From assembly GCA_003194525.1 (NCBI GenBank), contig NBIV01000188.1:1-64000 (forward strand): DNA of 64,000 bases. The letters run 5' to 3'. Under the pieces are notes generated by a model. It was not told the origin of the DNA. It worked only from the letters and a program-made list of their open reading frames with translations, and did not search any database. Numbering within the stretch: the first letter of the stretch is position 1; each line of letters begins with the position of its first letter. Of the stretch, positions 1 to 64,000 are shown piece after piece. Source of the stretch: Gracilariopsis chorda. Its lineage: Eukaryota > Rhodophyta > Florideophyceae > Gracilariales > Gracilariaceae. The position numbers and the translations under genes are program-made.

Positions 1-35
1 CGCACCCAGCGGTCGATTCGGCCGAGAAACTAATC

Positions 36-1266
36 TTGGGAGTCTCCCCCACAGGAGGGGTGTCTTCCAAGCCGAAGTTGAAGACGCCTGAGGCGCCACC
101 GCTTCGCTCCCCTGCCAAAATCCTTACGAGGAAACTGGCTCAAGAAGACGTGAGCTCGGACCACTTAGTGGCTCTGCGTCGTCTGTGGATACGGTCCCGT
201 AACCTCGCATCCCCGGATCGAGTTTTGGTAATGGCCAAGAGGAACTATAAAATTTATAGTGACCTCGGTCTCTCTAACCAGTTCATGGTTCGTCAGTTAT
301 CTGTCCTGGATACAGGGTGCCGCTCCGAACCTGATCAATATCGGGATTATTCCACCCGCCATGCGGAAATGCATTCGCATTGGTCCAAGTCTAGATCTGG
401 CGGACCGCTAATAACAACCCGCTCCAGACTCTTGGAACAATTCCTCTGGTACTCAGACTAGGCACCTACGTGGTGAAGTTGGACTTCATCGTATGCGATT
501 CTCTTGCTGCACCGGTCATCCTCGGTTGTGATTTCTGTGACGGCTTCGTGGAAGCTATCCGCCCTCGCTCCAGATCCGTGGAATTGGCCAACGGTTCGAC
601 CATCCCGATTGTACGGAAGCCCTTGCGACACGCCTTCCCGTAAACGGGTACCTTTTACCTGCTGCTCAGGAAGCGTCCAATGTGGATCGAGCATCTACGA
701 AGATTCGCGTCGCGGAACCAGTTTCGATCCCGAAGGAATCTCAGGTGTGGGTCTCGGTAACATCCAAACACCACGGGTTGCAGGTTGTTCAACCGCTCCC
801 CTCGCTCTACGAACAGCGCCGTCTCGCATTAGCAAATGGGATCGTATCCGTCGAGCCGGACAAACCCTTTAAGGTTCTCGTTGCTAACCTCGGAACTACC
901 ACTCAGTGGTTGGTTAAAAACCAGATTCTGGGCAACATGCTTCCGCATCCGTTGGCTATCCTTCTTACAAAGATTCCGATATCCGACGTTCTCGGAATAC
1001 AAGACCCTAAGGAGGGGGAGGAGGTCCCGTTCGTTCCATTGGATCCCGCCCGGGAAAGTTCAGATTCGACTGTCGAAGAAGCTCAGAAGAGCACGACTTC
1101 AGCATCGGCAGATACTGCGTTAGACCCAGAACAGGCTTTGGATAAGTTGGACCTGGATCACATTAATGAATCTCATCGTGAGAAGTTTCGTGACATGCTC
1201 AGGGACTTTACCGCCATGTGGGACGGTTCCCTGGGGACGATAGGGGTAACCGAACATCGGATTTGA
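36..1266 (+). pseudogene. Gypsy protease and RT linker region (broken)
   Basis: This is the N-terminal part of pol. The aspartic protease motif VLDTG is read near 300-318 and lines up with VLDTGAGPNFV in copy C. Just after it the frame shifts, so the reading moves to another frame (RLGTYVVKLDFIVCDSLAAP near 440-520) and shifts again near 640. From 682 the frame is open to 1266 and carries the linker before RT, ending in TEHRI where copy C has TEHRIDL. A one-base change there moves RT into the next frame. No functional protease can be made from this copy. Confidence 0.85.
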
Positions 1267-1267
1267 T

Positions 1268-2539
1268 TTGTTGCCGGATACACGGCCTATTGCACAGCAC
1301 CCGTATCGGGCAGGCCCTAAAGCAAGGGGGGAAGAGAAATCTCAGGTGGAGAAGATGCTGCGACCTGGAGTTATCGAAGCAGCACAATCCCCTTGGGCTT
1401 CTCCTGTTGTCCTTGTTCCGAAAGCGGATGGATCATGGCGTTTCTGTGTGGATTACCGCCGCCTGAATGCGGTTACCGTCAAGGAGGTCTATCCGATTCC
1501 ACGAATGGACGAGTACATTGACTCCCTGGGGAGCGCCACGGTGTTCACTACCCTTGATGCCAATTCGGGATACTGGCAGGTCCCTATTAGGAAAGAAGAT
1601 CGTGATAAGACCGCGCTTGTGTGCCATCAAGGACTATATCGCTTTAAGCGAATGCCGTTTGGACTAACGAATGCCCCAGCTACATTCCAACGGGCAATCG
1701 ATATCCTCTTGGCGAGGTTCAAATGGATCAGCTGTCTGGTATACTTGGACGACATTATAGTGTACTCCAATAACTTGGACGATCACCTGTCCCATGTCCG
1801 GGAAGTCTTGACAGTGCTCCGCAACGCGGGCATCACCCTGAAGCTGGGAAAGTGTGAGTTCTGCGCCGATTCGGTAAAATATCTGGGACACATCATCCGC
1901 CCCGGACAGCTTTCAATCGATGAAGCAAGAGTGAAATCACTTCGAGAGGCGAAACATCCGACTAATCAAACGGAGCTTTGATCCTTCCTAGGACTTTGCA
2001 ATGTATATCGCCGATTCGTTCCGAACTTCGCCGACTTGTCAGCACCGCTTAACGCACTCCTCCGGAAAGGACAACCCACCGAACTGGACGTCTTTGACGA
2101 GGCTGAGTCGTCAGCATTCTCGTCTCTTGTCGACGCTGTAACGTCCCCGCCAGTTCTGGCCTTACCGCACCCGGACTTACCCTTCGAAGTGGATACTGAC
2201 TCAAGTGCCAACCAGGTGGGTTGTGCGTTGTTTCAAGTCACGGAAGAAGGAGAAAGACATCCGATCGGATATTGGTCACGTTCGTTGAACGTTCACGAGC
2301 GCAACTACTCGGTGTCCGAGAAGGAGTGTCTTGCTGTTGTTTGGGCGTTGGCAACGCTTCGCCCATACCTTATGGGTAACCATTTCAAGGTTCACACCGA
2401 TCACTCGGCTCTCCGTTGGCTACTCGAAATTCGAGAACCGTCGGGCCGCCTCATGCGTTGGCGTCTCCGACTCTCGGAATTTACATTTGATGTCCTCTAC
2501 AAGAAGGGATCCCTGAATACTCAGGCTGACGCCCTATAG
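1268..2539 (+). pseudogene. Gypsy reverse transcriptase and RNase H (two nonsense mutations)
   Basis: The RT fingers and palm are visible: WRFCVDYRRLNAVT, TTLDANSGYWQVP and the catalytic YLDD box at about 1741-1752, followed by KLGKCEF and YLGHII. An in-frame TGA at 1979-1981 replaces the arginine of the conserved ELRSFLGL motif, and the frame continues open to 2539 through RNase H (DTDSSANQVGCALFQ, SRSLNVHERNYS, HTDHSALRWLL). A TAG at 2537-2539 replaces the serine in ADALSR. Sequence after each stop stays in frame, so these are point nonsense mutations rather than rearrangements. Confidence 0.92.
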
Positions 2540-2596
2540 CGCTTAGGAACATCAGCGGAAACCGAACTGGTCGACGATCTGGAAATACCATGTTTC

Positions 2597-4597
2597 ATGG
2601 CACAATCCCCGGAGGGAACGGAAGAAGACGACCCAGACGTGAATGGGGATGACATCTGTGATGATATTCTGGCTGCAAGCCCTACGGATCCTCCGGATGG
2701 CCAGGTTGTTCCCATATCCTCTGAGGAAATGATCCGTGAACAACAGCAGGATCCTTTCTGTGCCCAGATTCGTGCCCGTCTTAACGGGGGTGCACAGATA
2801 CCCTTTGCGGTGAACGATCGAGGCTACCTAGTCAGGTCGCTGACACGGGCCCCACAGATCGTTGTACCTCACACGCTGCAGCAGCGCGTCTTGCATCTAT
2901 CGCATTACGCGAAGTTGGGTGCACATCCCGGCGGGAGGAAACTATACCTGACCCTTCGCAGGGACTTCTATTGGCCTGCTATGGCATTTGACTGCTATGC
3001 AGTTTGCCGCTCGTGCGTGGAATGTGCGAAGAATACTGTGAAACTTCGGAAGTACTCGAAGAAGTTAACACTATTCCCGGCACGGGCGCCACTCGAATAT
3101 GTCGCTATTGATATCTTGGGCGAGCTTGTCAAAACCAAACGTGGTTACAAGTATCTTCTCGTCATTACTGACCGCTTCTCAAAGTTGGTGAGAACAGTAC
3201 CGCTTAAACGGATTACCGCGGACGTGGTTGCGCGTGCGTTCGTAACCCACTGGGTCTTTACTTACGGCCCGCCGGTACATCTACTCTCCGACAACGGATC
3301 TCAATTTACCTCAAAGTTCTTTCAGGACGTATGTAGAATCTTGGGAATCAAGAATATGTTTACTACCACCTACCACCCGCAGTGTAACGGACAAGTGGAA
3401 CGATTCAATCGTACTATGCTCAACGCACTCCGCGCTTATATCGCGGATCACCCCATGGAATGGGACTTGTACACGGACGCTATTACGTACGCGTATAACA
3501 CCCAGGTACACCGGGTCACGACCCTCGCTCCATTTGAGCTGGTCCTGTCTCGGATTCCGCCACCCATGGCTATTGAAGCGCAACCGAACGTCTCGGGGTA
3601 CCCTTCACCAAGGTTATATCGAGATTCCTGGAAGGAATGGTTGAAGAACATGGTCCCTACCGCCCGAAAGGCTATGGGAAAAGCCCAGGAGGCATACAAA
3701 CAGAACTTCGACGCCAAGATTCGTACCCCGATACCCCAGGTCTCGGAAGGGGATTCTGTCTTCCTGCGAAAGGAATATTATAATCCCGAAAAGGAGAAGC
3801 GTCACAAGTTGTCACCGATAGTGAATGGACCCTATCGGGTGGTTTCCGTCGCCGACGACACAGTCGTACTGGACATCGATAACCAGTTCGAACGCGTCTC
3901 ACGCGACCACGTAGCCCACGCGCCTGCGCCCCCTGAGGGCTCATCACCGCTCGTGACAATCCCGGAGGATGACCTCGTAACTCCGCCAACGGATAATCTG
4001 CTTCCGTCCCGCCCACCCGTCTTACCGCACCCGGAACGGGGACTCTCGGATCTTCCGATTGCCGATCAACCGGTTGAGCGCGCCGCGCGTATCGTGCAAC
4101 GCACGCTTGACCCCAAACGCCTAACCGTTACTCCGCCCGCGGAGGTCCTTCAGCCTGAACCCACCGCCCTCTCACCTAAAGAGGGGGAGGGACGGGAATC
4201 GATCGCGCCATCGCGGAAGGAAGCTCCGGCGTCGGACGGTGTCCCGTTTCATACGGCTTCGCGAGCGAGTTCCCTCGCGCCGCACTCTGCGCTAACCGAG
4301 GCCCTTCAGAGCAAGGGTACTGCCGTCACGGAACGCGTGGTAAGCCCGGCACGGGAGAAGGTTGGGAACAGTGGACGAGCCCGCATCGGGAATACGGCAT
4401 CGTCGGATGAGCACCCCCGGAGCAGGGAGGAGTTGAACGCATCACGAAGCGAGAAGGCCGTCTCCGCGGACCCGGATGCACCCCTGTCGAGCGAGTCGCT
4501 GGGTAGCGAAGGAGGAAGTAGTGAACCGGACTCGGTGTGGTCACTAATGTGGCGAATGATATCTCCGAGCACGGAGCACATACAACCTCGGTCATAA
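2597..4597 (+). pseudogene. Gypsy integrase, 666-aa open segment
   Basis: This continues the RNase H frame after the TAG at 2539. The zinc-binding HHCC module is at residues 103-143 (HYAKLGAHPGG, then CRSCVEC). The DDE core shows D172 (AIDILG), D232 (LSDNGSQF) and E268 (NGQVERFNR), with the DD(35)E spacing of retroviral-type integrases. GPYRVV near residue 400 fits the GPY/F module of chromoviruses. The C-terminal ~200 residues are a low-complexity Pro/Ser/Glu tail. The segment is long and uninterrupted, but it has no start of its own and would need read-through from the broken upstream region. Confidence 0.92.
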
Positions 4598-5034
4598 CCA
4601 GTTTCGTGGTGAGCTGAAAAGCAACCGCGGACACGGAGAGTGTGGTTGACACTGCGTGCGTTACTGCAGAGCCCCACAAATGGACACTGTGACGCCACTG
4701 TCACGCGGACGAAGCCCGAAATTCCAAACCGTGGAAAGGTGTACACGTACATATCGCCGGCCGGCGTCAGGAGTACAGTCAAGACCCGCGTCGTGGAAAG
4801 ACCGCGCGCGACACTTGCCGCCAGCGGCCAGCCAATCACAGTGTGTGATGCATGGCAATCCGCCTCCTGGCGTCGGAACCGTAGTGAACCGCCTCCCTCA
4901 CCGTGAACGGTCAAACTCACCAGAGTTGCACGGGTCGCGTGGGAGAAGAGCTCGCGAGCTGCAAGTCAATAGAGGAATCCGGTTAGAACGGAAGGCCCCC
5001 CACAAGGAGAGGATTAGGAAGCGGAAAGACCGCA

Positions 5035-5379
5035 ATGCGGTATCAAGTCCCAGCACTCGCAGCGTCGAGGAAAACTGACTTTGCCCGCAGGGTCGCGCCA
5101 ATTTCAGGCAAGTCCCCTCACAGGGTTCTCCCCTTAAGCCCTGCCATGACGGGTCAGGAGCCGGCTACGTACGACCAGGAGTTTGTCGTTGACCACATCG
5201 TGGATCATGTTCTAGACTCCAAAGGAGTGTGGTTTTACCAAGTCCGATGGTACGGATACCCCCCGGAAGAGCACACATGGGAGCCCATTCAGCACCTTCC
5301 TCGTTCCAAGGTGATAACCTACCACCGCCGGACGCGGTTCCCACTCCCATCCACTTTGGACATGGCCCAGGTTGGGTAG
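5035..5379 (+). pseudogene. Chromodomain at pol C-terminus (frame-shifted)
   Basis: Around 5176-5330 the frame reads EFVVDHIVDHVLD, then FYQVRWYGYPPEEHTWEP, then an HLPRS tail. That is the chromodomain pattern, with aromatic residues at the usual cage positions. Chromodomains of Ty3/gypsy integrases are known to steer integration toward modified histones. It is in a different frame from the integrase ORF that ends at 4597, so at least one frameshift lies between 4597 and 5035. The downstream 5380-5650 stretch is purine-rich and non-coding. Confidence 0.85.
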
Positions 5380-5673
5380 GACGATACACTGCACTATGCA
5401 GAAGATTCCGAAGACGGAAGAGAAGTCTCCGAAGAGAAGAGGACACAGGAAGAGATCTGGCTACAGAAGGTTACACGAAGTAATGGAATGGATAGGGAAA
5501 CCAATGGTCATTGGACGTCACAACCGCCTAGCGGTCCGACCGAAGTAACGGTTTAATGAAGAATACCGCCTAGCGGTCCAGCATGAAGATGCTATGAAGA
5601 AGAAAAAGAAGAGTCCGGACATACGGATATAGAAGAAGGAAGTCGTTTACCACAAGCTATGGAGCGTTAAGCG

Positions 5674-7616
5674 CTAACCTATATCAGGTGTGTGTGCCAC
5701 GGTCCAGGATCCTGACTTAGGATGAGCCGCTCGTTGGCGGTTGGTAGTTCGCAGACGCGAAAGCCAATAACCGCTCACGCTGGTGAGGTTGGAAGGCGCA
5801 ACCAATCCAATGGACTGGAGGTGAGCCCTGAGGGCAACGGCCTGAGGGTCCACGGGGACCGGAGATGCGGTAGACGGAGAAGCAGCCGCACTGGCGGCCA
5901 TATTCCAGCCATCTGGAGCAGCCACATGCTGGCCGGATCCGTCGAGATCGTCGACCATCGCCGCTCCCGGGGCTACGGCCTCCTCCACCTCATCGGGGTC
6001 GTCATCCACCATTGGATCATCCTCGTAGGAACCGTGCCAGTCATCGAAAAACATGAACCCAACCGGGTGGCCTCGCAGAACGGAGCGTGGTACATCGCGT
6101 AACGCTAGCGCGTGAGCCCGTGAAGTCACGGATACCTCCCAAGGGTCATAGAAGACGAAGTTGCCAGCGTTTGGATTTCTCCGGCCTGGAGAGCGATCAT
6201 GCCTGGAAGGCTCACCGTCAGGGACGTTGGAGGCTGGGACTGTATCCCAGTTAACCATATCCATGGTGTTCAGAAGGCACTGAAGCTCATCCACATTGGC
6301 TTCGGATCCCAGAGGGATATAGAGATCCAATCGGCGGATAACCTGGCGCAGGTGAGGAGGAATGTACCACAGACGGTTCTTGTCGTACACCTCCCAGAGG
6401 AGAAACGCGGCAACGCGAGCAGCCCATTCGGCGAGGAAGAGAGTCCAGTAACCGGAATCCGGATTGTTGATTAATCGTGAACCGATGTAGCTGAGGCACG
6501 GAGGCATCTCCGCAAAGCATCCCTCGGGACTTCGAACCTGCTCCACCAATGGGGAAGAGGTGCATACCGGCCGCGCATCCCGGATGGACGGAGCCTCTCG
6601 ACCTCGAGATTTTGGTATGGTACCAGGAACCCGAAGCGGGAGCGCGCCTTTCGCTCAAACCGGAGTCGGTCGAAGAAGGATCTGCGATGATTCGGACGAC
6701 GAAGATATCGGAACTCTGCACGCAGAATTGGGCGCCTCCAGAGGAGCATCCCGGCTTCTATTGGAGTGGACCGGAACGGTGTAGATGGCTGGTAGGCAGC
6801 AAGGTTCTCGCAGTATGAGACTTCACCCTAGGTACGGTACCGCGAGAGGTCAAAGCTGTATTCCATTGGTATCAGCTCATCCGGATAACTCGTGCGGGCG
6901 AGACGGTCGTAGGCGACCTTGGCCATCCCGGCACGGGCTTCATTCAGCGTCTCGAAACCATATCTGGTGCGCTTACGTGCGAGGAACTGTGGCTCTACCG
7001 CGATACGCGTCCTCCAGTCGAAGGAGTCGACCAAATCCCGGCCTAGTCCCCCTGGGAGCTCGCCCTCCTCCACATAGGAGTCGATGAGGTCCGAGTCGGA
7101 AACCCATGTGGGGTGGAACCAGGGCGCATGCGAAAAGAGGAGAGCGTCTTCCCGGGGATTGCGGGCCCAAAGTGTCGATGGTGACACCCAGCCGGCGGCG
7201 GTCGCAGTGATCGGTACCGCTTGAGCGGAATTCCAGGCGGAGATACTCGCGGCATCCGAGGCATCCAAGGTTGGAACATGAGACGATCCTCCAGGCAGAG
7301 GCAAGGAGAGGAACCCAGAGGTTGGGTGACGAACCCGCGACCCCGGCGTCGCGGAGGAAGGTTGTCCGCTCGCGGAAGTCCCCTGCGGGGCGCCCGCAGG
7401 CGGGTTGTTCGAAAACGGAGTGTTGGTCATAGTAGAGAGGGGCGCAGAGTCTGTTGAAGAAGGTACTGAGGGTTGATCAGTTGTAACCGTGTTGGTACGG
7501 GGGACCGGTATCTCGGCGATTCCCTTGTCGGGACTATTTATACCCTCGCGCCTCATCTCCTCACGCCTATACTCACGTTCGGTTTCGGCCCTTAAGGAGT
7601 GGGATGTGTAGTGCAA
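5674..7616 (-). pseudogene. Antisense ORF in the 3' region of copy A, broken
   Basis: On the strand opposite pol, between the chromodomain and the 3' LTR, an ORF reads from 7616 with an in-frame TAG at 6828-6830 and stays open to about 6471. A frame change near 6549 then leads into a second open stretch ending at 5674. The first part is Pro/Ser/Thr-rich, then globular (HAPWFHPTWVSDSDLIDSYV). The second part is globular (GYWTLFLAEWAARVAAFLLW) with an acidic C-terminal section. I recognise no domain. The first ATG lies inside the LTR edge; ATGs at about 7560 and 7430 are alternative starts. Copy C lacks this region, while copy B has an unrelated-looking antisense ORF in the same place (63046-63954). 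Confidence 0.55.
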
Positions 7617-8520
7617 TACATTCCCGCGTACGGGCGATGGTGAAACTCATATCTGAGGTGTACTCGGTGCGAGCGATGAAGCGGGATGCATGAATTTTAG
7701 CCCCCGTTTACCGGGCTAATTAGCGGTCGGGTTACCCAGGGTGGTTATGGGAACATTCATATTTTGTGGTACTTGCCTGCCAAGGGTGGTGGACACGTGG
7801 CTACAGCCCCGGCCAGGAGGCCCAAAATGGCTACTTATTTTAGTGTAGTTTAGGGGTTAATTTTACTTAGGCTAGTGCACTACCTACTTTACTGCACTGA
7901 GCTAGTACTTGAGCGTCGGCCGCACGACGGCGAGCTCACCAAGAAAAGAAAAGGAGAGTTCGGGTCTGACTCTATTCGCCATGCGAAGTGTCTAACTCCT
8001 CGCGGAGGTACACCGCTTGCCCGGTAGTTTCACCGGACTCGCACCACCGAGGAGACCGTGCTCGTCGTACCCAGTGGGTTGTGACCACTCGTGGTATTCA
8101 TTGTTGTCGTGTGACCGCCCGTACAGGCCCTATCTCCGCCCCAGTTTTGGGTATTGATATTACCGACGTGTGTCGTGAGACCGTGAGACCATCTCTTCCC
8201 CTCATATCCCCTAACCGCCGCGCGGTGCGTGTTCGTGTGTGTGTATCGGCACCCCCCTCCGGGGTCTGTTCCCGCTTTCCGCACGCCCCCGTCGGGTGGT
8301 CCCTTTCCCTCTTTTGTTCCCCTGCTCGCAGGCTACTTCCGTACCAGCCGTGGTTCCGACCCGTTCTAACCCCTAAACCTCCGAGGTACATGCAGGCTCC
8401 CGACGGAGTTACACCCGTCATACAGAACACGAAAGGCTCTACCCAGCTGGGCCTACCTCTCCAAGAGAGCAAGGCTTCGAGCTGCCTTGGGTGCCTTTCC
8501 CACAACGGGATTGCACCACA
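7607..8520 (+). repeat. 3' LTR of chromovirus copy A (914 bp)
   Basis: The LTR begins TGTAGTGCAAT and ends ATTGCACCACA, giving near-perfect terminal inverted repeats with the canonical TG...CA ends. A purine-rich tract (AAGGAGTGGGATG, 7594-7606) sits directly upstream, as expected of a polypurine tract. The last ~85 bp align with the LTR of copy C read on its own strand (shared blocks include CTACCCA..CTGGG and the TTGCAC terminus). The partner LTR is outside the window, so the age of the insertion cannot be estimated here. Confidence 0.82.
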
Positions 8521-49431: not shown

Positions 49432-50256
49432 TGTTGTGCAACGCCCCAAAGGGGAGAAACACCGAAAGACGTTCGGGATCTTTCCTCCGTGGAGGTGAAC
49501 CCAGTTGGGTAGATCCCCTCTTGGGGTGGCACGGCGGAGCCTGTTTGTAAGACCGAGGCCACCCTTCGCGACTAGCGCAAGAGGGTTTAGGACAAGAATC
49601 GGTATCTGCGAGAGCGGGAATGCATCCTGGCCAGAGGTAGGTTTCCACGTAAGTGGGGGTGTGTGAGCGGATGCGCACACGACGGCCGCGGATAGCGGGA
49701 GGTGCTACCCTAAAAAGGGGAAAAGGAAGGGCGAAGAGGAGGAAGAGAGGACGAAATGAGTCGCGAGAGCGACGGGGGCGAACGGCGATGCCAGTAACAA
49801 TATCCCTATACAGGGCGAAATACCAATGCAATCGGAATAATATGACTCCCAGTGATGGGTCCCTTTAGATGTGCAAGGGGGTTAGATGTCGCGTGGTTCA
49901 CGGCGTTTCCCTCCAAAGAGGAGTAGAGCACGCTCGCAAGCGGTAACAACTAGAGCCAATTCCCCAGGTTGGGGTCCCTTGTTGGGGAAGGTTTACTGGT
50001 GCGACGGCAGTGCGCCGTCGCACTAAGTACTAGCTTCCCAGAAATGGGTGTGAAAATAATAAATAAAATCAACGAAAATACTCCACATTTCGTGGCAACA
50101 TCCACTACTGTGGCCAACCGCCAATTGACCCAAAACCGTGTCCCACGTGTTCATATCCACCGTTTTGGGGCGTAGTTCATATACACACTACAGAACCGAT
50201 AGTATCGGGAAAGCGTTCAAGTACCAAGAATCCCTCCCTGAGGGCGTTGCACTACA
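49432..50256 (-). repeat. 3' LTR of copy C (825 bp)
   Basis: On the element strand it begins TGTAGTGCAACGCCC and ends GGGGCGTTGCACAACA, with long terminal inverted repeats. It is nearly identical to 58325-59149. It is dense in short inverted repeats such as CCCC-TCTT-GGGG, GTCGC-GAGA-GCGAC, CCCCA-GGT-TGGGG, CCGATA-G-TATCGG and an 8-bp stem GCGACGGC/GCCGTCGC. Confidence 0.96.
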
Positions 50257-50270
50257 TATCCCCCCCCTAA
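50257..50270 (-). other. Polypurine tract of copy C
   Basis: On the element strand TTAGGGGGGGGATA directly precedes the 3' LTR. This is the primer for second-strand cDNA synthesis. Confidence 0.8.
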
Positions 50271-50475
50271 GACGGGAAAACGACCGTGGACGCGGAGGGT
50301 TCCCAGACGAAAATGGGTGATAAAAGGGCGTGCGCCGTCTGCGGTTCTTCTCTCCTGGCATAGCCAGCTATTGTAGTATTGTGTTGTGGGGAGCTAGCTG
50401 CTCCCTTGAATAAACTTTCCCGTTTAGAACGGTGATTCTCGTTTGAGTTCCCCGTCTCCGACGGACCTTGCTTTG

Positions 50476-50907
50476 TTATCCTTTCCTATCGCCCTCCGCT
50501 CGCGCGGCAATGTTACCCGACTTGGGCATTAACCAGCGTAGCTGGGGCTGCAGTTCCCGTTTGACGGTGGTATCGCAGGACCTGCGACCGTGGGAGGTGT
50601 TTGATTGGCTCCCACGTATCCCACTGGGGTCATACTCGTACCAGTGGACGCGGTATTGTAGAATACCATCCTGGTCCCAGGTGTGTCCGACAAGTCGGTC
50701 TACTACGAACTCTCGTTCGTAGACCTGCCGGCCGTGCCGGGTGGTGGTTGTATTCCCTTGTGAGGGTTGCCCACGGTGCGGTATAATGTCCCTTAGCAGG
50801 GTGTTCGGCGATAACTCCGGCGTTGCCACGCGCTGTGGTAGCGGCCGCTGCTCGTGCGGGAGGATATCCCTCAAGAGGGTGTTTGGAATCATGTTTTTCA
50901 CCGCCAA
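50476..50907 (-). pseudogene. Copy C chromodomain (frame-shifted)
   Basis: Reads YEREFVVDRLVGHTWDQDGI then LQYRVHWYEYDPSG, the first two-thirds of a chromodomain. The continuation WEPI..HLPRSQ is in the next frame, so one indel lies near 50615. Upstream the frame is repetitive (NTLLRDI twice, spaced 30 residues). Confidence 0.8.
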
Positions 50908-51343
50908 GTTATTCCCCAGAGGGGCGTCGTTGTTTCCGTCATCACGGTAGGCCGGGCGAACCGCCAGTCGGCGGGGACTTGATCTCCGCGAGTGCGGTCT
51001 TCTTCGCGAGCCGCGAGCTTGCGGGGTCTTTGCCGCGTATGCGGGAACGGCGTTTGCGACATCCTCTGTGGGGTCCCGTGTGACACGGTAAGTGGTAAGC
51101 GTTCCGCCTCCCCTGGAGGGTCACGAGCGTTCTCTGCCATACGTTCCGGCTGTGCCGTGGTGTCCCCGGCTACTGTGGGGTTGCCTAAGGCTAACTCCGG
51201 TACACCGTCATTGTGGTTAAAATTCCCCTTTGGGGGATGCCGGGCAGTTGCCGATGACACCCTTTTCAGGGGCCTTGCCGCTAAGCGCGGTGCACCGTCT
51301 CCATGAGAAGCGGCAGCGTCCGGTACGACCGGTTTCGAGCGTG

Positions 51344-53719
51344 TCATGGCGCGCGTTTTCCCGAGTTCCTCTGTTCTTCGCCGCAGCGTTGCGGAAGTTG
51401 GCTCATATTATTCCCCGGAGCGCGGGCTTCGATTCCGTCGACGACGGGTGGCGTTTCCGGCGCTTGCGCCCCAGGGCCTGAACCTTCGATTGCGGCTTGG
51501 CCGCCGTTTTCTCCAAGAGGGTTATGGGTATTTCCCAGCGGCGCTGGCGTATCTGGGCGCCTTTTCTCCGCGGGATGCAGGTCTGCTGGACCTAATTGGA
51601 CCGCTTCTGCGGGGCCTGCCGCCAATGGCGGCTTCGATGCATCGCTCTGCTCAGGGCATTGGGGGCCATCGTCACCATACTCCCGTATCGGGGATCCTTC
51701 CCTGACAGGGGTGTGCGGTAGTTGCGCAGCACTGCCTGAGAACGGGGGATTAGTGTCGTGTGACATACTCCGTGCTCCACGGTCAGTGTTCCGTATGTCA
51801 CGTGTTTCCCGTTGCGACGGCGATATCGTTCCTCGAAAACGAGTGTTCTCCTCCCCCTCCTTAGACGGAGCGGCGGGATAAGGGATAACATTCCCCGCCT
51901 GGCGGGTATAAATTCGCGCCAGGGGGGCGGGCGTGGTAGGGGCGGGCGTTGACAGGCCCGAATTACCCGGCTGAGCTGGTGAGTCCGACAGGGTCGGTAG
52001 GTCTGAGAGTCCCCGGCTGGGGTGTGGTAGTAACGTAGGCGTAGTACTCCCGGATGATTCCGTTGTTGCAGAGTCCGTAGAAACGGGGTTGCCTGGATCC
52101 AGGACTACCTCTGACGAGGGGGGAGAGGCAAGGACAACACGATCACGGGAAATCCGTTCCTGCGTTTCGCCCATCTCTACCACGACAGTGTCGGTGTTCA
52201 CAGAGATGACCTTGAATGGTCCATTCGCCACAGGCGAGAGTTTATGGCGCTTCTCCCGTTCCGGCTTGTAATACTCCTTCCTGATGAAGAAGTAGTTATT
52301 CGCCCGAATCGGGGACGGTTTCCCTCGCAAGCGAGCATCAAAATTCCGCTTGTAAGCGGCTTGGGCCCGTGCCATAGACTTCCGCGCATGGGGAACCAGC
52401 TTGGAAAGCCATTGCTTCCATCGCTGCCGGTAGATACCCACTGATGGGAAATTGTGCAAGGTAGCTTGGGGTTCCAGCGCCACAGGCGGGGGTGTTCTAG
52501 ATAGAACCAACTCGAATGGTGAAACTCCGGTAGTCCGGTGTACCTGCGTGTTGTACGCGTAGGTTAATGCATCAGCGTACATGTCCCAGTTCTTTGGGTG
52601 GTCTGCGACGTAGGAACGTAGCGCCACGAGTAACGTCCGGTTAAACCGTTCAACTTGCCCATTACACTGGGGGTGGTAGGTAGTCGTGAACAAGTTCTTG
52701 ACATCCAGGATGCGACAAACATCCTGGAAGAACTTGCTCGCCAACTGTTTCCCGTTATCGGAGAGAACCTCCACAGGGGGACCGTAGACAAAAATCCAGT
52801 GCGTCACCAGAGCCTGGGCCACCGTGAGAGCGGTTATCCTCCGAAGAGGGACACTCCGTACCAGCTTAGAAAAGCGGTCGGTAATGACAAGTAGAAACTT
52901 GTTTCCACGTTTCGTGGTGAGTAGTGGTCCGAGAATATCGATCGCGATAAACTCGAGCGGCGCCCTTGCGGGGAATAGTTTCATCTTCTTCGCATTTTTG
53001 CGGAGTTTCACGCGATTCTTCGCGCATTCGCTACAAAACCGCACGGTTGCGTAGCAATCCACCGCCATGGCGGGCCAATAGAAATCCCTTTGCAGGGTTA
53101 GGTAGAGTTTCCTCCCACCTGGGTGACCTCTAATGGGGGCGTAGTGTGATAGATGTAACATCTGCGACTGCAGAGAATGAGGTACCACAATCTGTGGGCG
53201 AGATTCGACCTTCCTTACGAGGTAGACTTTGTCGTTCACCCCGAAAGGGAGATCTTCACCACCGTTGATACGGGCACGAACCCTCTTACAGAATGGGTCG
53301 CCGAATTGTTCTCGGATCATTTCTTCCGGTGATACCGGTACAAAGTTTCTCGGTAACGGGTTCTCAGATTCATCTCGCGATGCGAGTCGTTCGTCAAAGT
53401 CAGCATCCTCGTCCCAGTTTTCTGGCCCAGCCTCGACGGCACATTCCGGATCATCCGGGTCTATGGCCATGAAACATGGGACTTCATCATCCTCCGTTGG
53501 GAGTGCTTCCCCACTTGTGGGTAAACGCGACAGAGCGTCGGCTTGGGTGTTCTGCGCGCCCTTTTTATAAATGACTTGAAAGTCATATTCCGCGACGCGG
53601 AGCCTCCAGCGCATGAGGCGTCCCGACGGGTCGGAGATATTCATTAACCACCTCAATGAGGAATGATCCGTGTACACGGTGAAGTGAACTCCCATAAGGT
53701 AGGGGCGCAGAGTGGTCAT
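51344..53719 (-). pseudogene. Copy C RNase H end and integrase (791-codon open segment)
   Basis: It opens in RNase H (YTDHSSLRWLM, ADALSRLPTSG), then the HHCC zinc module (HYAPIRGHPGG, CSECAKN), the DDE core (AIDILGPL, LSDNGKQLASKFFQ, NGQVERFNR) and a Pro/Ser-rich tail to the TGA at 51344. The first RNase H residues are upstream, separated by TAG codons at 53963 and about 53791 (the latter in place of Trp in GYWSHS). The region coding KFFQDVCRILDVKNL forms a near-perfect long hairpin at DNA level (52691-52736). Confidence 0.92.
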
Positions 53720-53962
53720 CGCCCATACGACGGCGAGGCGCTCTTTCTCCGATACGGAGTAGTTCCGCTCATGAACATTGAGCGAGTGCGACTAATAACC
53801 AATTGGGTGTCGTTCCCTCTCGGGGGTAGTTTGAAAAAGAGCACACCCGACTTGGTAGTCGTTCGAGTCCGTATCTACGGAGTATGGCAACCCAAGTTTT
53901 GGGAGATGTAGGATTGGTGCTGATGTGACAGCCTTCTCCAAGGAGTTAAAGGCTTCCGATTG

Positions 53963-56041
53963 CTAGGGCGTAAATGTTCCCAGTTTTACGGGGTTCCCCT
54001 TTCGCAAAAACCCGTTCAGGGGCGCTGCAGTATCCGAAAAGTTCGGGATAAACCGTCGATAGACGTTGATTAGCCCCAAAAAGGATCGCAGTTCCATTTG
54101 AGTACGGGGCTCTTTCGCCTCAACGAGGGACTTGACTTGAGCTTTCTCGATTGCTAACCGTCCAGTACGGATAATGTGACCCAGATACTTCACAGTATCT
54201 GTAAAAAACTCGCATTTCCTCAACTTGAGGGTAGTTCCCGCATCGCGGAGTACGGTCAGCACGTCTCGGAAGTGAGTGAGATGGTCGTCCAACGAGTTGG
54301 AGAAGATGATAATATCATCAAGGTAGACCAGATTACTCCGCCACTTAAAGCGGTTGAGTAGAATATCTACTGCACGCTGAAAGGTGGCGGGGGCGTTGGT
54401 TAACCCAAATGGCATCCACTTGAAGCGGTAAATTCCTGCGTGGCAGGTGAATGCGGTTTTGTCGCGATCCTCCTGTCTGACAGGTACTTGCCAATATCCC
54501 CAATTGGCATCAAGGGCCGTGAACACGGTGGCGTCTCTAAGGGAGTCAATGCACTCGTCCATACGAGGGATGGGGTACGTGTCCCTAACAGTCACGGCAT
54601 TGAGCCGGCGGTAGTCGACACAGAACCTCCAGGTTCCGTCGGCCTTTAAAGCCAGTACAACTGGGGATGCCCAGGGTGATTGAGCGGGCTCAATCACACC
54701 TGCGCGGAGCATCTTGTCCACTTGGGACTGCTCCTTTTCCCAAGCTTTCGGACCTGCCCTGTAAGGGGGCTGTGCAACCTGTCGCGCACCGGGGTATAAA
54801 TCGATCCGGTGTTCTGTTGCATTAATCTCGCCAAGCGAGCCATCCCACATTGTGGTGAATTCCCGTAACATTGTACGGAGTTTGTCGCAGTGCGACTCTG
54901 GCACGTGGCTGAAGTCCAGCGCTTCAAGTGCTTTTCCCGGATCAATCCGGTCGTTGCTCGATGGAGCATTGTCCTGTGGAACAGGTGTGGTTCGCAATTC
55001 CGAGTTACTCGGTATGTTCGACGCTGAAGTAGCGGTTTCCTCCCCCTCCTTAGACTTGACGTCTTCGGACGGCGGGGCGAACTCTTCAGAAGAGGTGGTA
55101 ACTCCGAGTACATCAGCGGCTTTCATCTTCGTTGGCAGCATTCCCATAGGATGGGGGGTTCCACTCCCAATTACTTGGTGCTTGACCAGATACTGGGGGT
55201 GTTTGCCGAGGTTGGCAACCAATATCCGGAAAGGAACATCCGGGGAAATGGAGACAATTCCATTAGCCAGCGCCAGCTGGGATTTCTCGTACAACGAGGC
55301 GAGGGGTTTTATAACCCGAAGACCGTGTCGACGGGAATTTACCTGCACCCAGACTTGCGACTCAGGTGGTATAGAAACCGAGGCAGCGACGCGGAGCTTG
55401 GTGGACTCGCGGGACGTGGGCGGTGGTTCCTGCGCAGCAGGGAGCGGAACTTGTTTCCGAGAGGACCGCTTTAGCGGGCGGCGAACAATCGGAAACGACG
55501 ATCCGTTGTCAAGTTCTACACGCCTGAGGCGGGGCCTGATTGCGTCGACAAATCTGTCGCAATAATCACATCCCAGTATGACTGGTGCTGCCAATGAACG
55601 GCAAACGATGAAGTCAAACTTCACCACAGAGGTGCCAAGTCTCACGACGAGGTCCACTGTGCCCACCGTTTGTAACGGATTATTGTTCGCATCCAAAATG
55701 TCAGGGACCGCGTCAGAGCGGATACGAGACGGCACAAGCGGGGGTAACAATGATTCCACAACAAAGTTGGGGCCTGCACCTGTATCCAGGACGATGAGAA
55801 ACCTCACCATAAACTGGGGATCAAGGCCAAGGTCGGCATAGACCTTGTAATAGCGCTTGGCCAAGACCAAGACTCTACCGGGAATCTGGGGATTTTTACT
55901 CCGTATCAACGGGCAACGCAACACACCGAGGTGCGCAGAGTCCGCGTCAGTGGTGTCTTTCTTCGAGAGGACTTTCAATGGGGAGCGAGGCGAGGACGCC
56001 TCGGACGCCAACAGCCTCTTGTCTGAGGACGCCTCTCCCAA
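53963..56041 (-). CDS. Copy C protease-reverse transcriptase ORF (692 aa, truncated in RNase H)
   Basis: This is the longest intact pol piece in the window. It has protease VLDTGAGPNFVVESLLPP, then LVVRLGTSVVKFDFIVC and APVILGCDYCD, a linker, and RT with TWRFCVDYRRLNAVT, TALDANWGYWQVP, MPFGLTNAPATFQRA, LVYLDDIIIF (catalytic YLDD), KLRKCEF, YLGHII and ELRSFLGLINVYRRF. All RT motifs are intact. It ends at TAG 53963-53965, early in RNase H; RNase H and integrase continue in the same frame beyond it. The start shown is the first ATG after gag; a frame change separates it from gag. Confidence 0.85.
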   Translation of the reverse strand: MGEASSDKRLLASEASSPRSPLKVLSKKDTTDADSAHLGVLRCPLIRSKNPQIPGRVLVLAKRYYKVYADLGLDPQFMVRFLIVLDTGAGPNFVVESLLPPLVPSRIRSDAVPDILDANNNPLQTVGTVDLVVRLGTSVVKFDFIVCRSLAAPVILGCDYCDRFVDAIRPRLRRVELDNGSSFPIVRRPLKRSSRKQVPLPAAQEPPPTSRESTKLRVAASVSIPPESQVWVQVNSRRHGLRVIKPLASLYEKSQLALANGIVSISPDVPFRILVANLGKHPQYLVKHQVIGSGTPHPMGMLPTKMKAADVLGVTTSSEEFAPPSEDVKSKEGEETATSASNIPSNSELRTTPVPQDNAPSSNDRIDPGKALEALDFSHVPESHCDKLRTMLREFTTMWDGSLGEINATEHRIDLYPGARQVAQPPYRAGPKAWEKEQSQVDKMLRAGVIEPAQSPWASPVVLALKADGTWRFCVDYRRLNAVTVRDTYPIPRMDECIDSLRDATVFTALDANWGYWQVPVRQEDRDKTAFTCHAGIYRFKWMPFGLTNAPATFQRAVDILLNRFKWRSNLVYLDDIIIFSNSLDDHLTHFRDVLTVLRDAGTTLKLRKCEFFTDTVKYLGHIIRTGRLAIEKAQVKSLVEAKEPRTQMELRSFLGLINVYRRFIPNFSDTAAPLNGFLRKGNPVKLGTFTP

Positions 56042-56058
56042 AGGGGAGACTCCCTCAG

Positions 56059-56383
56059 TTAGTTTTCCGCCTTCGGCAGTGGGTTGGGTTCCTCGACAAC
56101 GAGTGCTTCATCCCGTTGACGGGGGTTTCTATCTGCATAAGCAGGGGTTGCAATGGATGGTTGCGTGATCTCCCGAATCGGGGCGTATGAAGCTTGCCGC
56201 GCACGCGTGGTCTGTGGTAGGGAATGGGAAAAGTCCGTAGGAAGCCGTCGGGACGGAACGCTTCTCCCCTGGAGTGAGGGCCTCGTAGTTTGCCACCACC
56301 TTGGCAATATCCTTCAGTGAGCAGATACACTGAGGCGAGGTATGGCCATGGGCATAACAAAGGTGGCAAATGAGAGCCAACAC
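56059..56383 (-). pseudogene. Copy C gag zinc knuckle region
   Basis: CHLCYAHGHTSPQC is a CX2CX4HX4C knuckle. It lies in a different frame from the upstream gag core, and the frame shifts back before the pol ORF. Confidence 0.8.
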
Positions 56384-56553
56384 CGCGACACGCGGATTAT
56401 TATTCCGAGTATCGGAGAAGCGAACCGCAGGGCGGGTGTCAGTCCATCAAGGACGTTGATAACGGGAATGACCGTTTGGAAACGGGATTCGTTGGGGTTG
56501 GACCCGACCGTTACCACCGTATAGAACGGGATCTTCTCTTCCCGTATCACGGG

Positions 56554-58218
56554 TCATCTCCGTCGTCGACAACAAATCACTGGTGGGTATCGACACACCT
56601 TCCCCTGCACTAAATTCATGGTATCAAATCCCTGTCCAGGGTTCCCATCCGCAGTGAGCGGGAGTGAGGAAGCATCGCTTTCTCGCAACAACGCCTTGGC
56701 GGATTTAGACCGATTGTTCGGAGTTCTTGCACGAAGTGCATCCCCTTCCGCTCGAGCGTGTTGGACCAGCTCGAGATAGGTGATCCTCCGCTTGTCCTCC
56801 CGATAACAGGTAACTAAACTCCGGATTGCCGGGTCAAGACCATCGACGAACATGGTACTGCGCTCCTTAGCGGGGTATACGTTACCACATCTGTGGAAAG
56901 CCTTGTTAAGGCACACCGAGTAATCGGTCTCAGTCTCTCCAGCACGCTTGCGTGTATCTCGCAAAGCCAGGATAGCCTGCTGAATAGCGGTGTTTGTGGC
57001 GTAGGAGCGCAGAAGGTACTGCACAGCCTCCGGTCAGCAAGTAACCCCTCCCTCGGAGGCACGAGAAGATCCTCTGACGGAGTTGTATTGGTCCTCCGCC
57101 ACTCCCTGTAAGAAATATGGTAAAGCCAAATAGGCTTGTCCCTCATTCATACCGAGGATATCGGCCTCCGCTACAAAGCGGGATAGGAAATCCAGTACTA
57201 GGACTGGGTCCTCTCCAGTAAAATACTGGTTGCGGAGCGAGAGCTGCATTCGCTTAATGCATTCTCGCACACTTCCCGTACCACGGGGCGTACGTCCAAG
57301 TGACGAATCTTCGAGCCGGTAGTACCGGTATGATAAAAGCTTCCGGTAATCTGGGTTTGTTGGTTTCAATTCCCGGAGACCGAGGTGTCTTCTCCCCTTC
57401 TGGCGGGTGCGGATCACACCTTCAGTGGCCGATGACCGCTTCGAGCGGGAGCAGTAGCCTCGCTTCTCGTCCTCCGATTCGGAGTCTGAGGAGCTCGAGC
57501 TAACCGAATGGTTTCGGGATGAGTCCGACGATGTCGAAGAATCGGAGTCCGAATATTTTCAGTGGTGTTTCCGTTGATGACGGCGTTTCTTCTTCCCAGC
57601 AAGCTGGTCGTTGTGCGATGCCTCGTTTACTGGATCAGCCGGGGATGGTTTGTGCATGAGGAAGAACTGCTCCAGCGTCTCCAGGTGGGCACCAATCCGA
57701 TCAAATCGGGCTTCAACTCCTTCGATGAAGGTGGCGGGTTGTCCCAATCTCTCCAACACGGAGTTGGCGTCAGACCGTAAAATACGGAGTTCCTCGGCAA
57801 CCTCCTTTACGGGGGTTGCCAAGACCACCTCTTGGAGGGATTTTAGTTCCCCTACAAGGTTGTCATGGGTGGTCCACAGAGCGCGGACCTGGGATTCCAG
57901 GGAAGTCCTCTGGGGGGTGTTATCGCCCGTTCCACGGGGGCTTGAAGCCGCGACAGCGGGAGCAGGGTGGGGTGCCTGGGGCACTGTGGCAGCAGCCGGA
58001 GTCAATGCTGCATTCCCCTGCGGGGGTGATAAAGAGGGCAAAAGGAGGTTCCGGGGTTCCCGGTCGGGGGTATCATTCTGCAATAAAGCGGTGCCAGCAC
58101 GGCTGGAACTTGTCCGTATAGAGATAAGGGGTACGAACAGAACTTTGGAAGTGTCCGCGTTGTCGCGGGAGCGACTACGCGTAACCACTGGCTCCGCATC
58201 GGAGGGCTTTCTCGACAT
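56554..58218 (-). pseudogene. Copy C gag, N-terminal and core parts (interrupted)
   Basis: 219 codons are open from 58218: polar N-terminus, Pro/Ala-rich stretch, then a helix (LESQVRALWTTHDNLVGELK, LRSDANSVLERLGQPATFIE). After a stop at 57559 the same frame resumes (57417-57034) with the gag core YRLEDSSLGRTPRG, CIKRMQLSLRNQYFTGEDP and VLDFLSRFVAEADILGMNEG, and again at 57024-56554. Several nonsense or indel changes are present. The core aligns with gag of copy B (GSDPISILRFLSLFR). Confidence 0.8.
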
Positions 58219-58303
58219 GAGAAAATACCGTTACGACGGGAAACGATCACGGAACGTCCGGTGAGTGAAAACAAACCTCGTAAGAAGGAAAACAAAAAAC
58301 CGA

Positions 58304-58321
58304 TTCTAGGTCGGGAGACCA
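58304..58321 (-). other. Primer-binding site of copy C
   Basis: On the element strand TGGTCTCCCGACCTAGAA follows the 5' LTR after a 3-bp spacer. It is identical to the site in copy B at 45618-45635. Confidence 0.8.
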
Positions 58322-58324
58322 CTT

Positions 58325-59149
58325 TGTGGTGCAACGCCCCAAAGGGGAGAAGCACCGAAAGACGTTCGGGATCTTTCCTGCGTGGAGGTGAACCCAGTTG
58401 GGTAGAGCCCCTATAGGGGTGGCACGGCGGAGCCGGTTTGTAAGACCGAGGCCACCCTTTGCGACTAGCGCAAGAGGGTTTAGGACAAGAATCGGTATCC
58501 GCGAGACCGGGAATGCGTCCTGGCCAGAGGTAGGTTTCCACGTAAGTGGGGGTGTGTGAGCGGATGCGCACACGACGGCCGCGGATAGCGGGAGGTGCTA
58601 CCCTAAAAAGGGGGAAAGGAAGGGCGAAGAGGAGGAAGAGAGGACGAAGTGAGTCGCGAGAGCGATGGGGGCGAACGGCGATGCCAGTAACAATATCCCT
58701 ATACAGGGCGAAACACCAATGCAATCGGAGTAATATGACTCCCAGTGATGGGTCCCTTTAGATGTGCAAGGGGGTTAGATGTCGCGTGGTTCACGGCGTT
58801 TCCCTCCAAAGAGGAGTAGAGCACGCGCGCAAGCGGTAACAACTAGAGCCAGTTCCCCAGTTTGGGGTCCTTTGTTGGGGAAGGTTTACTGGTGCAACAC
58901 CAGTGCGCCGTCGCACTAAGTACTAGCTTCCCAGAAATGGGCGTGAAAATAATAAATAAAATCAACTAAAATACTCCACATTTCGTGGCAACATCCACTA
59001 CTGTGGCCAACCGCCAATCGACCCAAAACCGTTTCCCACGTGTCCTCATCCACCATTGTGGGGCGTAGTTCATATACACACTACAGAACCGATAATATCG
59101 GGAAAGCGTTCAAGTACCAAGAATCCCTCCCTGAGGGCGTTGCACTACA
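58325..59149 (-). repeat. 5' LTR of copy C (825 bp)
   Basis: Same length as 49432-50256 and about 96% identical, no indels seen. The outer edge abuts the target duplication CCTTT at 59150. Both LTRs keep the terminal inverted repeats. Confidence 0.96.
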
Positions 59150-59622: not shown

Positions 59623-60282
59623 TTGGCGTTGCCCAAGCCTGGTAGACCGTACCTGCTGGATACGGACGCATCCGATGGACAGGTTGCATGTTCTATCCTT
59701 CAGGAACAAGAATCACCAAAGGATTATCGACCCATCGGATACTGGAGTAGGACCCTTAACACTACCAAAAGGAACTACAGTACTACCAAAAAGGAATGCC
59801 TTGCTATCGTATGGGCAGTTCTAACCTTAAGGCCTTACCTTGAGGGAGTTCGGTTTACCATTAGGACCGACCACCACTCGCTCTGCTGGTTGCTGAATAT
59901 GACTGATGCATTTAGTAGGCTCGCGAGATGGAGATTGCGGCTCTCCGAATTCGAATACGGAGTTACCTACACGCCAGGGGTCAAACACCAGACGGCTGAT
60001 GCGCTCAGCCGCATACTTACCGATGGAACAGACGAAACCCCTTTGGACGACGATATGCCAACTCCGAACCTCGAGGGATACCAGACAGACCCAGAGGATG
60101 ACGTACTGCTCGCCCAAGTGGTATGCTCCGATGGTGACGACGACGTTGATCCGGAGGATGTATACGTAATTGACTGGCCGCAGGACCCATTGGATGACGA
60201 TGTGGCCCTTGAGGTTAATGCCGTTGTGCCAGAGGAGAAGGAACTACTCCCTATCACCCTACAGGATCTCCTACAGGCGTAG
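59623..60282 (+). pseudogene. Copy B RNase H
   Basis: DTDASDGQVACSILQ, GYWSRTLNTTKRNYSTTKKE, RTDHHSLCWLLNM and ADALSRIL are the RNase H motifs in order, followed by an acidic linker rich in Asp/Glu. The TAG at 60280-60282 interrupts; integrase resumes downstream in the same frame. The segment is in the same frame as the RT fragment. Confidence 0.88.
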
Positions 60283-60381
60283 AAGGGTGATGAGTTCTGC
60301 CAATGGAAAGCGCAGCTTGCTGGAACCAGTGGATGTCTTTATGAATTTGACCAATTCGGATTACTATTCCGAAGGTCTCCT

Positions 60382-61317
60382 TTGGATGGTTCTATCCAGA
60401 AAGTCATTCCTAAGTCCCTACAGGCGCGGTTCCTTTACCTCGCTCACTACTCTCGATTTGCGGGACACCCTGGAGGCACACGCATGTATCAAACTCTTAG
60501 GAAGCACTTCTATTGGCCCTTCATGGCGAATGACCTTTGGAACACCTCAAGGACGTGCATTTCTTGTGCGAAGATCCGTGGGACACGAGCTCGCCATCAG
60601 GCTAAGCTAAAGTTCGTTCCAGCCGCTGGACCACTGGAGTTCATCGCAATGGACATACTTGGCCCACTGCCGAAGTCCACCCACGGGAACCAATTCATCT
60701 TGGTTATTACCGATAGGTTTACCGAGATCACACGGGCTATTCACTTGAGGACGACTACCGCTACGGATGTCACTATGGCGTTTCTTACCCACTGGGTCTA
60801 TCCTTATGGTTTGCCGCTTTATCTCCTGACGGATAATGGCACACAGTTCGTGTCGAAGTTCTTCTCGCACGTCTGTGCTACCTTCGGTATCAAGCACGTC
60901 ACCACGACGGCATACCACCCACAAACCAATGGACAAGCCGAGCGGTTCAACAAATTGCTTGCGAATCGTTTAGTACACTACACTGCTGAGCACCAATTGG
61001 ATTGGGACGACTACGTAGAACCATTTGTTTATGCCTACAACACACAGGTGCATAAGTCCACTGGCACTACACCGTTTGATCTCATCCTGACTCGGCAGCC
61101 GCTACCATTGGGAGTGGATGTGAAAACCTCTTGGTTCCCTCAGGATATAACCAAAGGAATGACACCTACGCAGGCTAAGAGATATGCTCGCCGGCGGATC
61201 GATTCTATCCTACAGGCAGCGAGAACTACGGTATCGCGATCGCAGTTAAGGTACAAAGCAAACTTTGCCAAAACTGTTAAGTTCACACCTACCTTCAAGG
61301 CAGGTGAACTAATATAA
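60382..61317 (+). pseudogene. Copy B integrase
   Basis: The HHCC module (HYSRFAGHPGGTRMY, CISCAKI) and DDE core (AMDILGPLP, LLTDNGTQFVSKFF, NGQAERFNK, with DD35E spacing) are complete. A TAA at 61315-61317 stops it before the GPY/F-like region, which continues at 61354 in the same frame. Confidence 0.92.
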
Positions 61318-61353
61318 CTGGACCGCGCGCCTACGGACAAGAATAATCCTCTG

Positions 61354-62274
61354 GTGGAAATTGAAATCGCCTCTAGGAAGCTCTTGCCTAAATCCATTGG
61401 CCCTTTCAAGGTGTTACGAGCATCTAGCCATACGGTTACGATCGAGCGCGATGGCCTTGAGGATACCGTCACCGTCGATCGTGTTTTACACGCTCCAATG
61501 GCTAGTGCTGCTCCATTAGAACCATCGGCACCGCCTCCAGATGACGCTCCTATCCCCGATGGATCCACACCAAAGGCTGGAAAAACTCGCTCCAGCGGTC
61601 TACCGAACGTTTCCTCCAGTGGTGTGACTCCTAAGGAAGTCTCTGTTGACTCCACGGTTGGTCCTGCCAGCGATTATGCTCCATTGGCAGAAATGGATTT
61701 ACCTGAGGAATCGTTTCTTCCACTGGAAAGCGCCAACTCCGTTGGTGAGGGAGATCTCCCATTAGGTTTTGCTCCAATGGATGATATGGACCTTCCAGAA
61801 GAAGCCTACGAGCCGTTGGATCAGGGCGACGAAGCGACTGCTTCGCCGCGCGATGCGCTTCCTGATGGTTTGCTGCGCCCGGCGCATCGTCCTGGACTCC
61901 TGCCCACCTTAGGAACAGTACCCGCGGAAAATTTTGGCATAACCTCCGGCGTAGGGAGCGAATTCTCCAATGGAACTGAGCCCCCAGGGCGTGGTAGTAG
62001 GTCTACAAGCTCGCGCCCAAAGAGCTTGGGTCCGACGGACACCATGGAGTTACCAGAGGAAGTATTAACAACGGAATATGTCGTCGAGGATATCCTCGCG
62101 GCAGAGGTTGACGAACACGGCAACCCCATCTACAAAGTTCGCTGGTATGGATATCCTCCGGAGTGCGACTCGTGGGAGCCGCGCCGGCACATCCCGGCGA
62201 ACTTTATCCGACGGTTCTGGCGAAAACAAGGGCGCACAGAGCGCGCATTTTTGGAGGGGGCGTATGACGCGTAG
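61354..62274 (+). pseudogene. Copy B integrase C-terminus with intact chromodomain
   Basis: GPFKVLRASSHTVTIE is the GPF/Y module. It is followed by a Pro/Glu/Asp-rich linker with repeated acidic MDLPEE-type motifs (three copies), then a full chromodomain: TEYVVEDILAAEVDEHGNPI, YKVRWYGYPPECDSWEP and RRHIPANFIRRFWRK, with the aromatic cage residues present. The ORF ends at the TAG at 62272-62274. Confidence 0.9.
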
Positions 62275-63954: not shown

Positions 63955-64000
63955 GCCTGAAGGATTGTGTGGGATTGCCTGAAAGTTATCCGTTTCATAA

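Follow-up and report, generated by a model that had tools for sequence, protein, structure and literature searches.

A dense array of short CC...GG hairpins tiles a Gypsy-type retrotransposon of the red alga Gracilariopsis chorda

Introduction

Short inverted repeats dispersed through coding sequence are known from several systems, which are compared here with copy C, a long terminal repeat (LTR) retrotransposon of the red alga Gracilariopsis chorda that carries an array of small hairpins. Copy C lies in the window, the stretch of 64,000 nucleotides at positions 1 to 64,000 of contig NBIV01000188.1 (C188; GenBank assembly GCA_003194525.1, 91.3 Mb in 1081 contigs). The dispersed packaging signals of single-stranded RNA viruses are, in the part of PMC6281560 drawn on here, many short, motif-sharing stem-loops spread over coding sequence, like the array. 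However, they are RNA recognized by coat protein, whereas the array has almost no G-U pairs and its shared bases are part of the stem. Genome-scale ordered RNA structure (GORS) likewise extends throughout coding regions. In contrast to GORS as outlined in the excerpts used, the array keeps to one narrow hairpin size, is marked by a sequence clamp, and does without G-U pairs, the comparison being one of hairpin counts and single-hairpin energies.

Quasi-palindrome correction by template switching (PMC8604942) yields perfect short Watson–Crick inverted repeats, also in coding genes, and so resembles the array. However, loop inversion and multi-base events are not general here, and the density, the size limit, and the CC clamp exceed what the relevant portion of that source describes. 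The coding palindromes of Nematomorpha are inverted repeats within protein genes, as here, but in the summary consulted they are mitochondrial and reach up to 284 bp, whereas the array units measure 11–14 nt and lie in a retrotransposon, including its LTRs. Ty3 is likewise a Ty3/Gypsy element, and its genomic RNA carries short palindromes that have been tested for dimerization. The account in PMC11381356, as far as it is used here, concerns six palindromes in the 5′ untranslated region and gag, whereas the array of copy C is element-wide. No report of such hairpin tiling was found in the open-access literature, in the titles and abstract openings among the matches listed.

An earlier note on this DNA had drawn attention to the density of short interrupted palindromes in copy C. 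Beyond that observation, the array has a CC...GG clamp, a near-absence of G-U pairs, strand-asymmetric flanks, and sharp limits at the element.

Copy C and Its Stem Excess

The two LTRs of copy C share 792 of 825 bases, and the element is flanked by a near-matching 5-bp short target duplication (CCTTC and CCTTT, one base different). Along the sense strand, pol presents PF00078 (reverse transcriptase), then PF17917, PF17921, and PF00665; it is on this order of reverse transcriptase, RNase H, and integrase that the assignment of copy C to Ty3/Gypsy rests. The gag region contains a zinc-knuckle-like CX2CX4HX4C in the 56129–56446 frame, noticed by eye and not from a family search. Copy C is 92–98% identical to L010, a young copy of the same family, over the 4.4 kb compared. 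It is somewhat GC-rich.

All seven palindromes listed in the earlier note for 54837–55012 are present. Six lie inside that stretch, and CTCGC-CAA-GCGAG starts at 54827, ten bases earlier. The chance level given for these 176 bp, about 0.7, agrees with a first-order Markov expectation of 0.63. The high density is real, but the example is richer than the average of the element, which shows an approximately 4-fold excess: positions 50001–58000 contain 116 stems of at least 5 bp with loops of 3–6 nt, compared with 28.6 expected. In 10001–50000, the same class numbers 176 versus approximately 148. The excess is found mainly at loops of 1–8 nt and stems of 4–5 bp, and 5-bp stems with a 3-nt loop alone number 76 versus 10.2.

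The excess also survives codon-preserving shuffling (200 shuffles per open reading frame (ORF)), a control that had been proposed together with the original observation. Two classes were counted, denoted (5,3) and (4,4) for stem length in base pairs and loop length in nucleotides. In the pol and integrase ORFs of copy C and in the integrase ORF of copy A, a related element in the window, none of the 200 shuffles reaches the observed counts. For (5,3) stems, these are 19 versus 2.9 in the reverse transcriptase part of copy C and 17 versus 3.0 in its RNase H/integrase part. Three host ORFs, two ORFs of T3 (a third, more distant Gypsy element), and the ORF at 45747 stay near shuffle expectation, with the exception of (4,4) stems in the host purC (13 versus 7.1, reached in 3 of 200 shuffles).

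Two simple origins were considered and rejected. Locking to a codon phase is contradicted by the use of all three phases, although the (5,3) stems of pol and integrase are unevenly distributed among them (18, 9, 9). Insertion of a mobile mini-hairpin is at odds with the diversity of stem sequences among sites, and units of 11, 13, or 14 nt would be expected to break reading frames when inserted.

The CC...GG Unit

The unit of the array is 11–14 nt long and has the form CC-N(2-3)-loop(3-4)-N′(2-3)-GG, i.e., a stem of 4–5 bp and a loop of 3–4 nt. On the sense strand of 8.9 kb of copy C (one LTR excluded), 140 such CC-type hairpins are found, as opposed to 10.1 expected; many stem-loops with a common motif are also a feature of packaging signals. 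By class, the counts are 45 versus 1.1 for (5,3), 56 versus 4.0 for (4,4), 29 versus 3.9 for (4,3), and 10 versus 1.1 for (5,4). In contrast, the reverse orientation GG...CC, of like strength, is near chance in copy C, with 5 versus 3.6 in the (4,4) class.

The array spans LTRs, gag, and pol in every codon phase. The gag region (56042–58220) harbors 36 CC-type hairpins versus 2.7 expected. The LTRs, for which the same pattern had been claimed, indeed have it (Table 1), the left one with 11 hairpins versus 0.7 expected in 626 nt. A milder version had been ascribed to copy A, and this too is seen in the densities per kilobase: 15.6 in 50001–59000 (140 hairpins), 5.7 in 1–9000, and 0.36 in the 39 kb of 9001–48000 (14 hairpins). 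Positions 60001–64000 hold three.

In L010, pairing continues inward from the clamp and leaves a loop of just 3 or 4. No clear regular spacing is apparent in this copy, the gaps having a mean of 43, a standard deviation of 36, and a maximum of 143 nt. The flanks of (5,3) hairpins are asymmetric on the sense strand, position −1 being A or C in 78% and position +1 being A in 50%, compared with 57% and 37% at control sites where CC...GG is unpaired; the asymmetry is partly a background trend. In the tally of flanks and inner pairs, one C2 segment (see below) partly duplicates hairpins of C1.

Pairing Rules

The young copy L010 contains 82 perfect CC...GG hairpins, whereas 4.3 are expected (19-fold). 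Near-hairpins show little of this excess: those with one G-U pair number 6 versus 4.5 expected, those with one A-C 9 versus 5.2, and those with another mismatch 24 versus 18.4. Among the inner pairs, 148 of 398 (37%) are A-T, and base composition predicts 38%. The criterion therefore looks like Watson–Crick complementarity and not pair strength. Models of selection for RNA stability predict 19–29% G-U among inner pairs, and models of DNA folding predict 0.5–23%, the low end being obtained only at thresholds that give fewer A-T pairs than are seen. The near-absence of G-U pairs together with the lack of a strength preference argues against selection for RNA stability, and ordinary RNA structure suits these rules less well than arm copying does, or than a strict reader of DNA pairs would. 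Arms that are perfect whatever the strength of their pairs are what quasi-palindrome template switching would produce, while the tolerance of G-U pairs that we would expect of packaging signals from the pairing rules of RNA is absent.

Copy C itself differs from L010 in its near-hairpins, with 36 single A-C versus 12.7 expected and 13 single G-U versus 9.1. Since the A-C excess nearly vanishes in L010, and since G>A is the commonest private change among copies, the excess in the window copy is read as decay. Folding of the antisense strand, which the A-C excess had first suggested, was dropped on the same grounds.

Distribution among Element Families

The integrase pieces of several families exceed their codon-preserving shuffles: A (21 versus 6.9), R69 (32 versus 8.3), D575 (21 versus 6.9), and the two segments found in family C, C1 (30 versus 8.5) and C2 (10 versus 4.4, reached in 3 of 300 shuffles). 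A relative labeled A85 was excluded from the count, being a copy that is nearly identical but has a shifted frame. A young relative of T3 shows no excess (8 versus 5.5), and the piece of the Copia element L072 is not clearly enriched (13 versus 8.7, 23 of 300 shuffles). The position of the clamp is family-specific. In C, it forms the base of the stem, whereas in the (4,4) stems of A and R69, it lies mostly behind an A/T pair. Thus, the array belongs to particular families and not to the host or to all of its Gypsy elements. Proteins of related Gypsy families are on record for Gracilaria domingensis, Agarophyton chilense, and Chondrus crispus.

Apparent Maintenance and Decay in Family C

The copies compared are best-scoring matches, 30 loci each for C and A, of which 29 and 29 were long enough for variant tests over 4.4-kb pieces. 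In each piece, rows below 0.94 median identity were left out, which kept 28, 29, and 17 of 29 rows for C and 29, 29, and 28 of 29 for A; the dropped C rows carry the second integrase segment. The test matched for base and position kept 16 to 29 of 29 rows.

Changes found in a single copy of family C fall in CC-type stems at approximately the neutral rate (59 of 328, 50.7 expected), as do doubletons (5 of 41, 6.3 expected). Variants common to at least three copies are depleted from these stems, with 1 of 97 observed and 15.0 expected (P = 1.6e-6). Elsewhere, shared variants are not depleted in loops (5, with 5.7 expected) and little depleted in other stems (7, with 12.4 expected). The depletion persists when position and base class are matched (1 of 95 versus 13.4 expected) and at synonymous sites only, where stems account for 1 of 38 shared variants versus 14 of 74 singletons (P = 0.018). 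Three further shared variants occupy sites at which only a minority of copies has a hairpin.

Copy C retains 62 hairpins in the stretch where L010 has 82. It appears that hairpins are preserved as long as the family is spreading and disappear from copies that no longer move. An origin of the array after insertion was rejected, as young copies hold more hairpins.

Turnover and Covariation between Families

Family C is a mosaic in which 12 of 29 copies share the reverse transcriptase but carry a second integrase segment that is approximately 20–25% different (compared in L010 and L027 at about 3500–4401, the integrase part). The C1 and C2 segments have 8 and 7 CC hairpins, of which 3 and 3 keep every pair intact in the other segment, with differences at 14 of 28 and 11 of 21 loop sites.

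Between families, seven sequence pairs were compared in both directions, so that the following counts are not independent. At the same columns, 63 of 355 comparisons retain four inner pairs, compared with 4.85 in shifted controls. Compensatory changes, which the earlier note had named as a check, also exceed these controls: 24 of the 63 retained hairpins include a double change, versus 4.75. Double-changed pairs are Watson–Crick in 84 of 192 cases, versus 150 of 684 in the control. One-sided departures show no preference for G-U (158 G-U, 147 A-C). Most hairpin positions turn over between families, and those that persist show compensatory change.

Proposed Explanation and Its Rivals

Our favored explanation, to which we give a chance approaching even, is that many exchangeable hairpins are each under weak selection in the replication cycle of the element. 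It is preferred because density is raised, because the propagating C lineage seldom loses hairpins, and because the clamp varies by family. Each hairpin would be one exchangeable site, and if the 19-fold density in L010 is taken as an equilibrium, 2Ns would be near ln 19 = 2.9 by our own estimate. What is read may be a folded single strand in which only Watson–Crick pairs count, most likely complementary DNA (cDNA) during reverse transcription. The clamp position differs between families, which suggests a reader encoded by the element, conceivably the Gag nucleocapsid or the reverse transcriptase. More broadly, and as a tentative proposal built on sequence comparison, these families might read or write a Watson–Crick-only code of 11–14 nt hairpins along the whole nucleic acid as it replicates, which is probably single-stranded cDNA. 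This distributed structural code over LTRs and genes would have a family-specific clamp and approximately 140 exchangeable, weakly selected sites, and would differ from packaging signals, ordered RNA structure, and quasi-palindrome repair.

Several observations weigh against weak selection. Selection on folding would not be expected to ignore pair strength, and the DNA model reaches near-zero G-U only where it predicts too few A-T pairs. Stems of C1 are not better conserved than the rest of the segment (15 of 70 sites differ versus 145 of 619); those of C2 are (6 of 51 versus 157 of 645, P = 0.04). Stems of family A show no depletion at low power, with 4 of 41 shared variants (3.5 expected) and 6 of 38 doubletons (3.2 expected). 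Finally, the related Gypsy family D339 (L075), with an open, intact ORF, lacks the array (8 versus 6.5 expected) and stands in the same unresolved clade as the array-bearing families, which shows that members of this clade can lack the trait.

The main rival, serious but rather doubtful in our estimate, is templated homogenization, in which the nascent strand folds over a loop of 3–4 nt and copies arm onto arm in each cycle, the hairpins being a by-product of the reverse transcriptase. It predicts Watson–Crick-only, strength-indifferent pairing and thereby accounts for the pairing rules no less well than selection does, and repair in each cycle would also stop stem variants from spreading. For DNA polymerase, the section of PMC8604942 referred to here describes how template switching homogenizes arms and inverts spacers. 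The earlier note had proposed such repair during reverse transcription; the fit to the pairing rules stands, but direct traces are few. Among 40 clusters of private changes (29 in C, 11 in A), none has two changes in one new stem of at least 5 bp, and three have one site whose longest stem grew to that length. The loop inversion expected of template switching is not seen on average: loops at 44 homologous hairpins have a mean identity of 0.69 in direct and 0.25 in inverted comparison, and just one loop, read as TCGC in C2 and A and as GCGA in L010, is compatible with inversion. With one shared stem variant in family C, the scored stems cannot contain a double change, and double-changed pairs in CC hairpins remain paired in 0 of 2 and 0 of 1 cases between C1 and C2. 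Nor does copying by itself explain the preference for CC...GG over GG...CC. One LTR site speaks in its favor: at 58888–58912 of the right LTR, compared with 49995–50023, three clustered private changes replace a 10-bp hairpin with a different, perfect 7-bp hairpin. This single case is compatible with a template switch.

Selection on hairpins in RNA or DNA had also been raised. Maintenance in the propagating C lineage agrees with it, but its RNA version fits badly. Selection on the structure of the sense RNA, as dispersed packaging or dimerization hairpins bound by Gag or as genome-scale structure, is accordingly judged unlikely. The packaging-signal model, as sketched in the cited part of PMC6281560, has just this pattern of many dispersed stem-loops with a common motif, and both the sense-strand flanks, with their background component, and the zinc-knuckle-like motif in gag would suit it. 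However, the G-U share is near zero and not at the predicted level, one-sided departures do not favor G-U, and strong pairs are not preferred. Escape from host silencing or nucleases, with dense hairpins keeping targets inaccessible, would be position-free selection on density and would allow the turnover seen between families, but we consider it very improbable, as gaps of up to 143 nt between the CC hairpins of L010 leave long open targets and G-U pairs would be acceptable in RNA targets. An origin by chance, from base composition or codon use, or through a host process after insertion is scarcely credible. The GC content of copy C and the (4,4) stems of purC point that way, but the controls, including codon-preserving shuffles, do not reproduce the array, T3 and D339 lack it, the Copia L072 is not clearly enriched, and the older copy holds fewer hairpins, not more.

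Other Features of the Window

The elements and their parts are listed in Table 1. In the copy A region, pol reads on the + strand, and ORFs at 5674–7646 on the − strand lie opposite, inside the hairpin-bearing region. Among host genes, positions 27775–29622 (+) encode a fusion protein with AIR carboxylase and SAICAR synthetase domains, whose closest matches besides its own entry are from Gracilaria domingensis (83%) and Agarophyton chilense (81%), which places the host among the gracilarialean red algae. The protein encoded at 30193–31245 (−) has a legume-lectin domain (PF00139, E 1.1e-10). In 10001–14000, GC content rises to 0.67 and GC skew shifts from +0.28 to −0.28; a tRNA-Thr (AGT) is found at 13309–13383 (−).

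Table 1. Retrotransposon features of the window, with positions counted from its first nucleotide
Feature	Position	Strand	Basis or remark
Copy A region, related Gypsy element with milder array	1..8500	+	limits from hairpin density only; integrase domain
Copy C, Ty3/Gypsy LTR element carrying the hairpin array	49432..59149	-	repeat pair, LTR ends, domains
Copy C 3′ LTR (sense), 825 bp	49432..50256	-	TG...CA ends; 15 CC-type hairpins
Copy C RNase H-like and integrase part of pol	51344..53719	-	PF17917, PF17921, PF00665
Copy C reverse transcriptase part of pol, containing the example stretch of the earlier note	53963..56041	-	PF00078, E 6.4e-35
Seven palindromes of the earlier note	54827..55012	-	
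Copy C gag region, several open pieces	56055..58230	-	
Copy C 5′ LTR (sense), 825 bp	58325..59149	-	TG...CA ends; 15 CC-type hairpins
T3, third and more distant Gypsy element without array, control	60382..62274	+	

Significance

The pairing rules, with almost no G-U and no strength preference, point to DNA or to copying and not to RNA folding. They thereby define a natural test between selection on cDNA structure and copying of arms by the reverse transcriptase. If the proposed explanation is true, the genes of a retrotransposon are overlaid by a second, distributed code, one that is kept while the element propagates and that decays after insertion.

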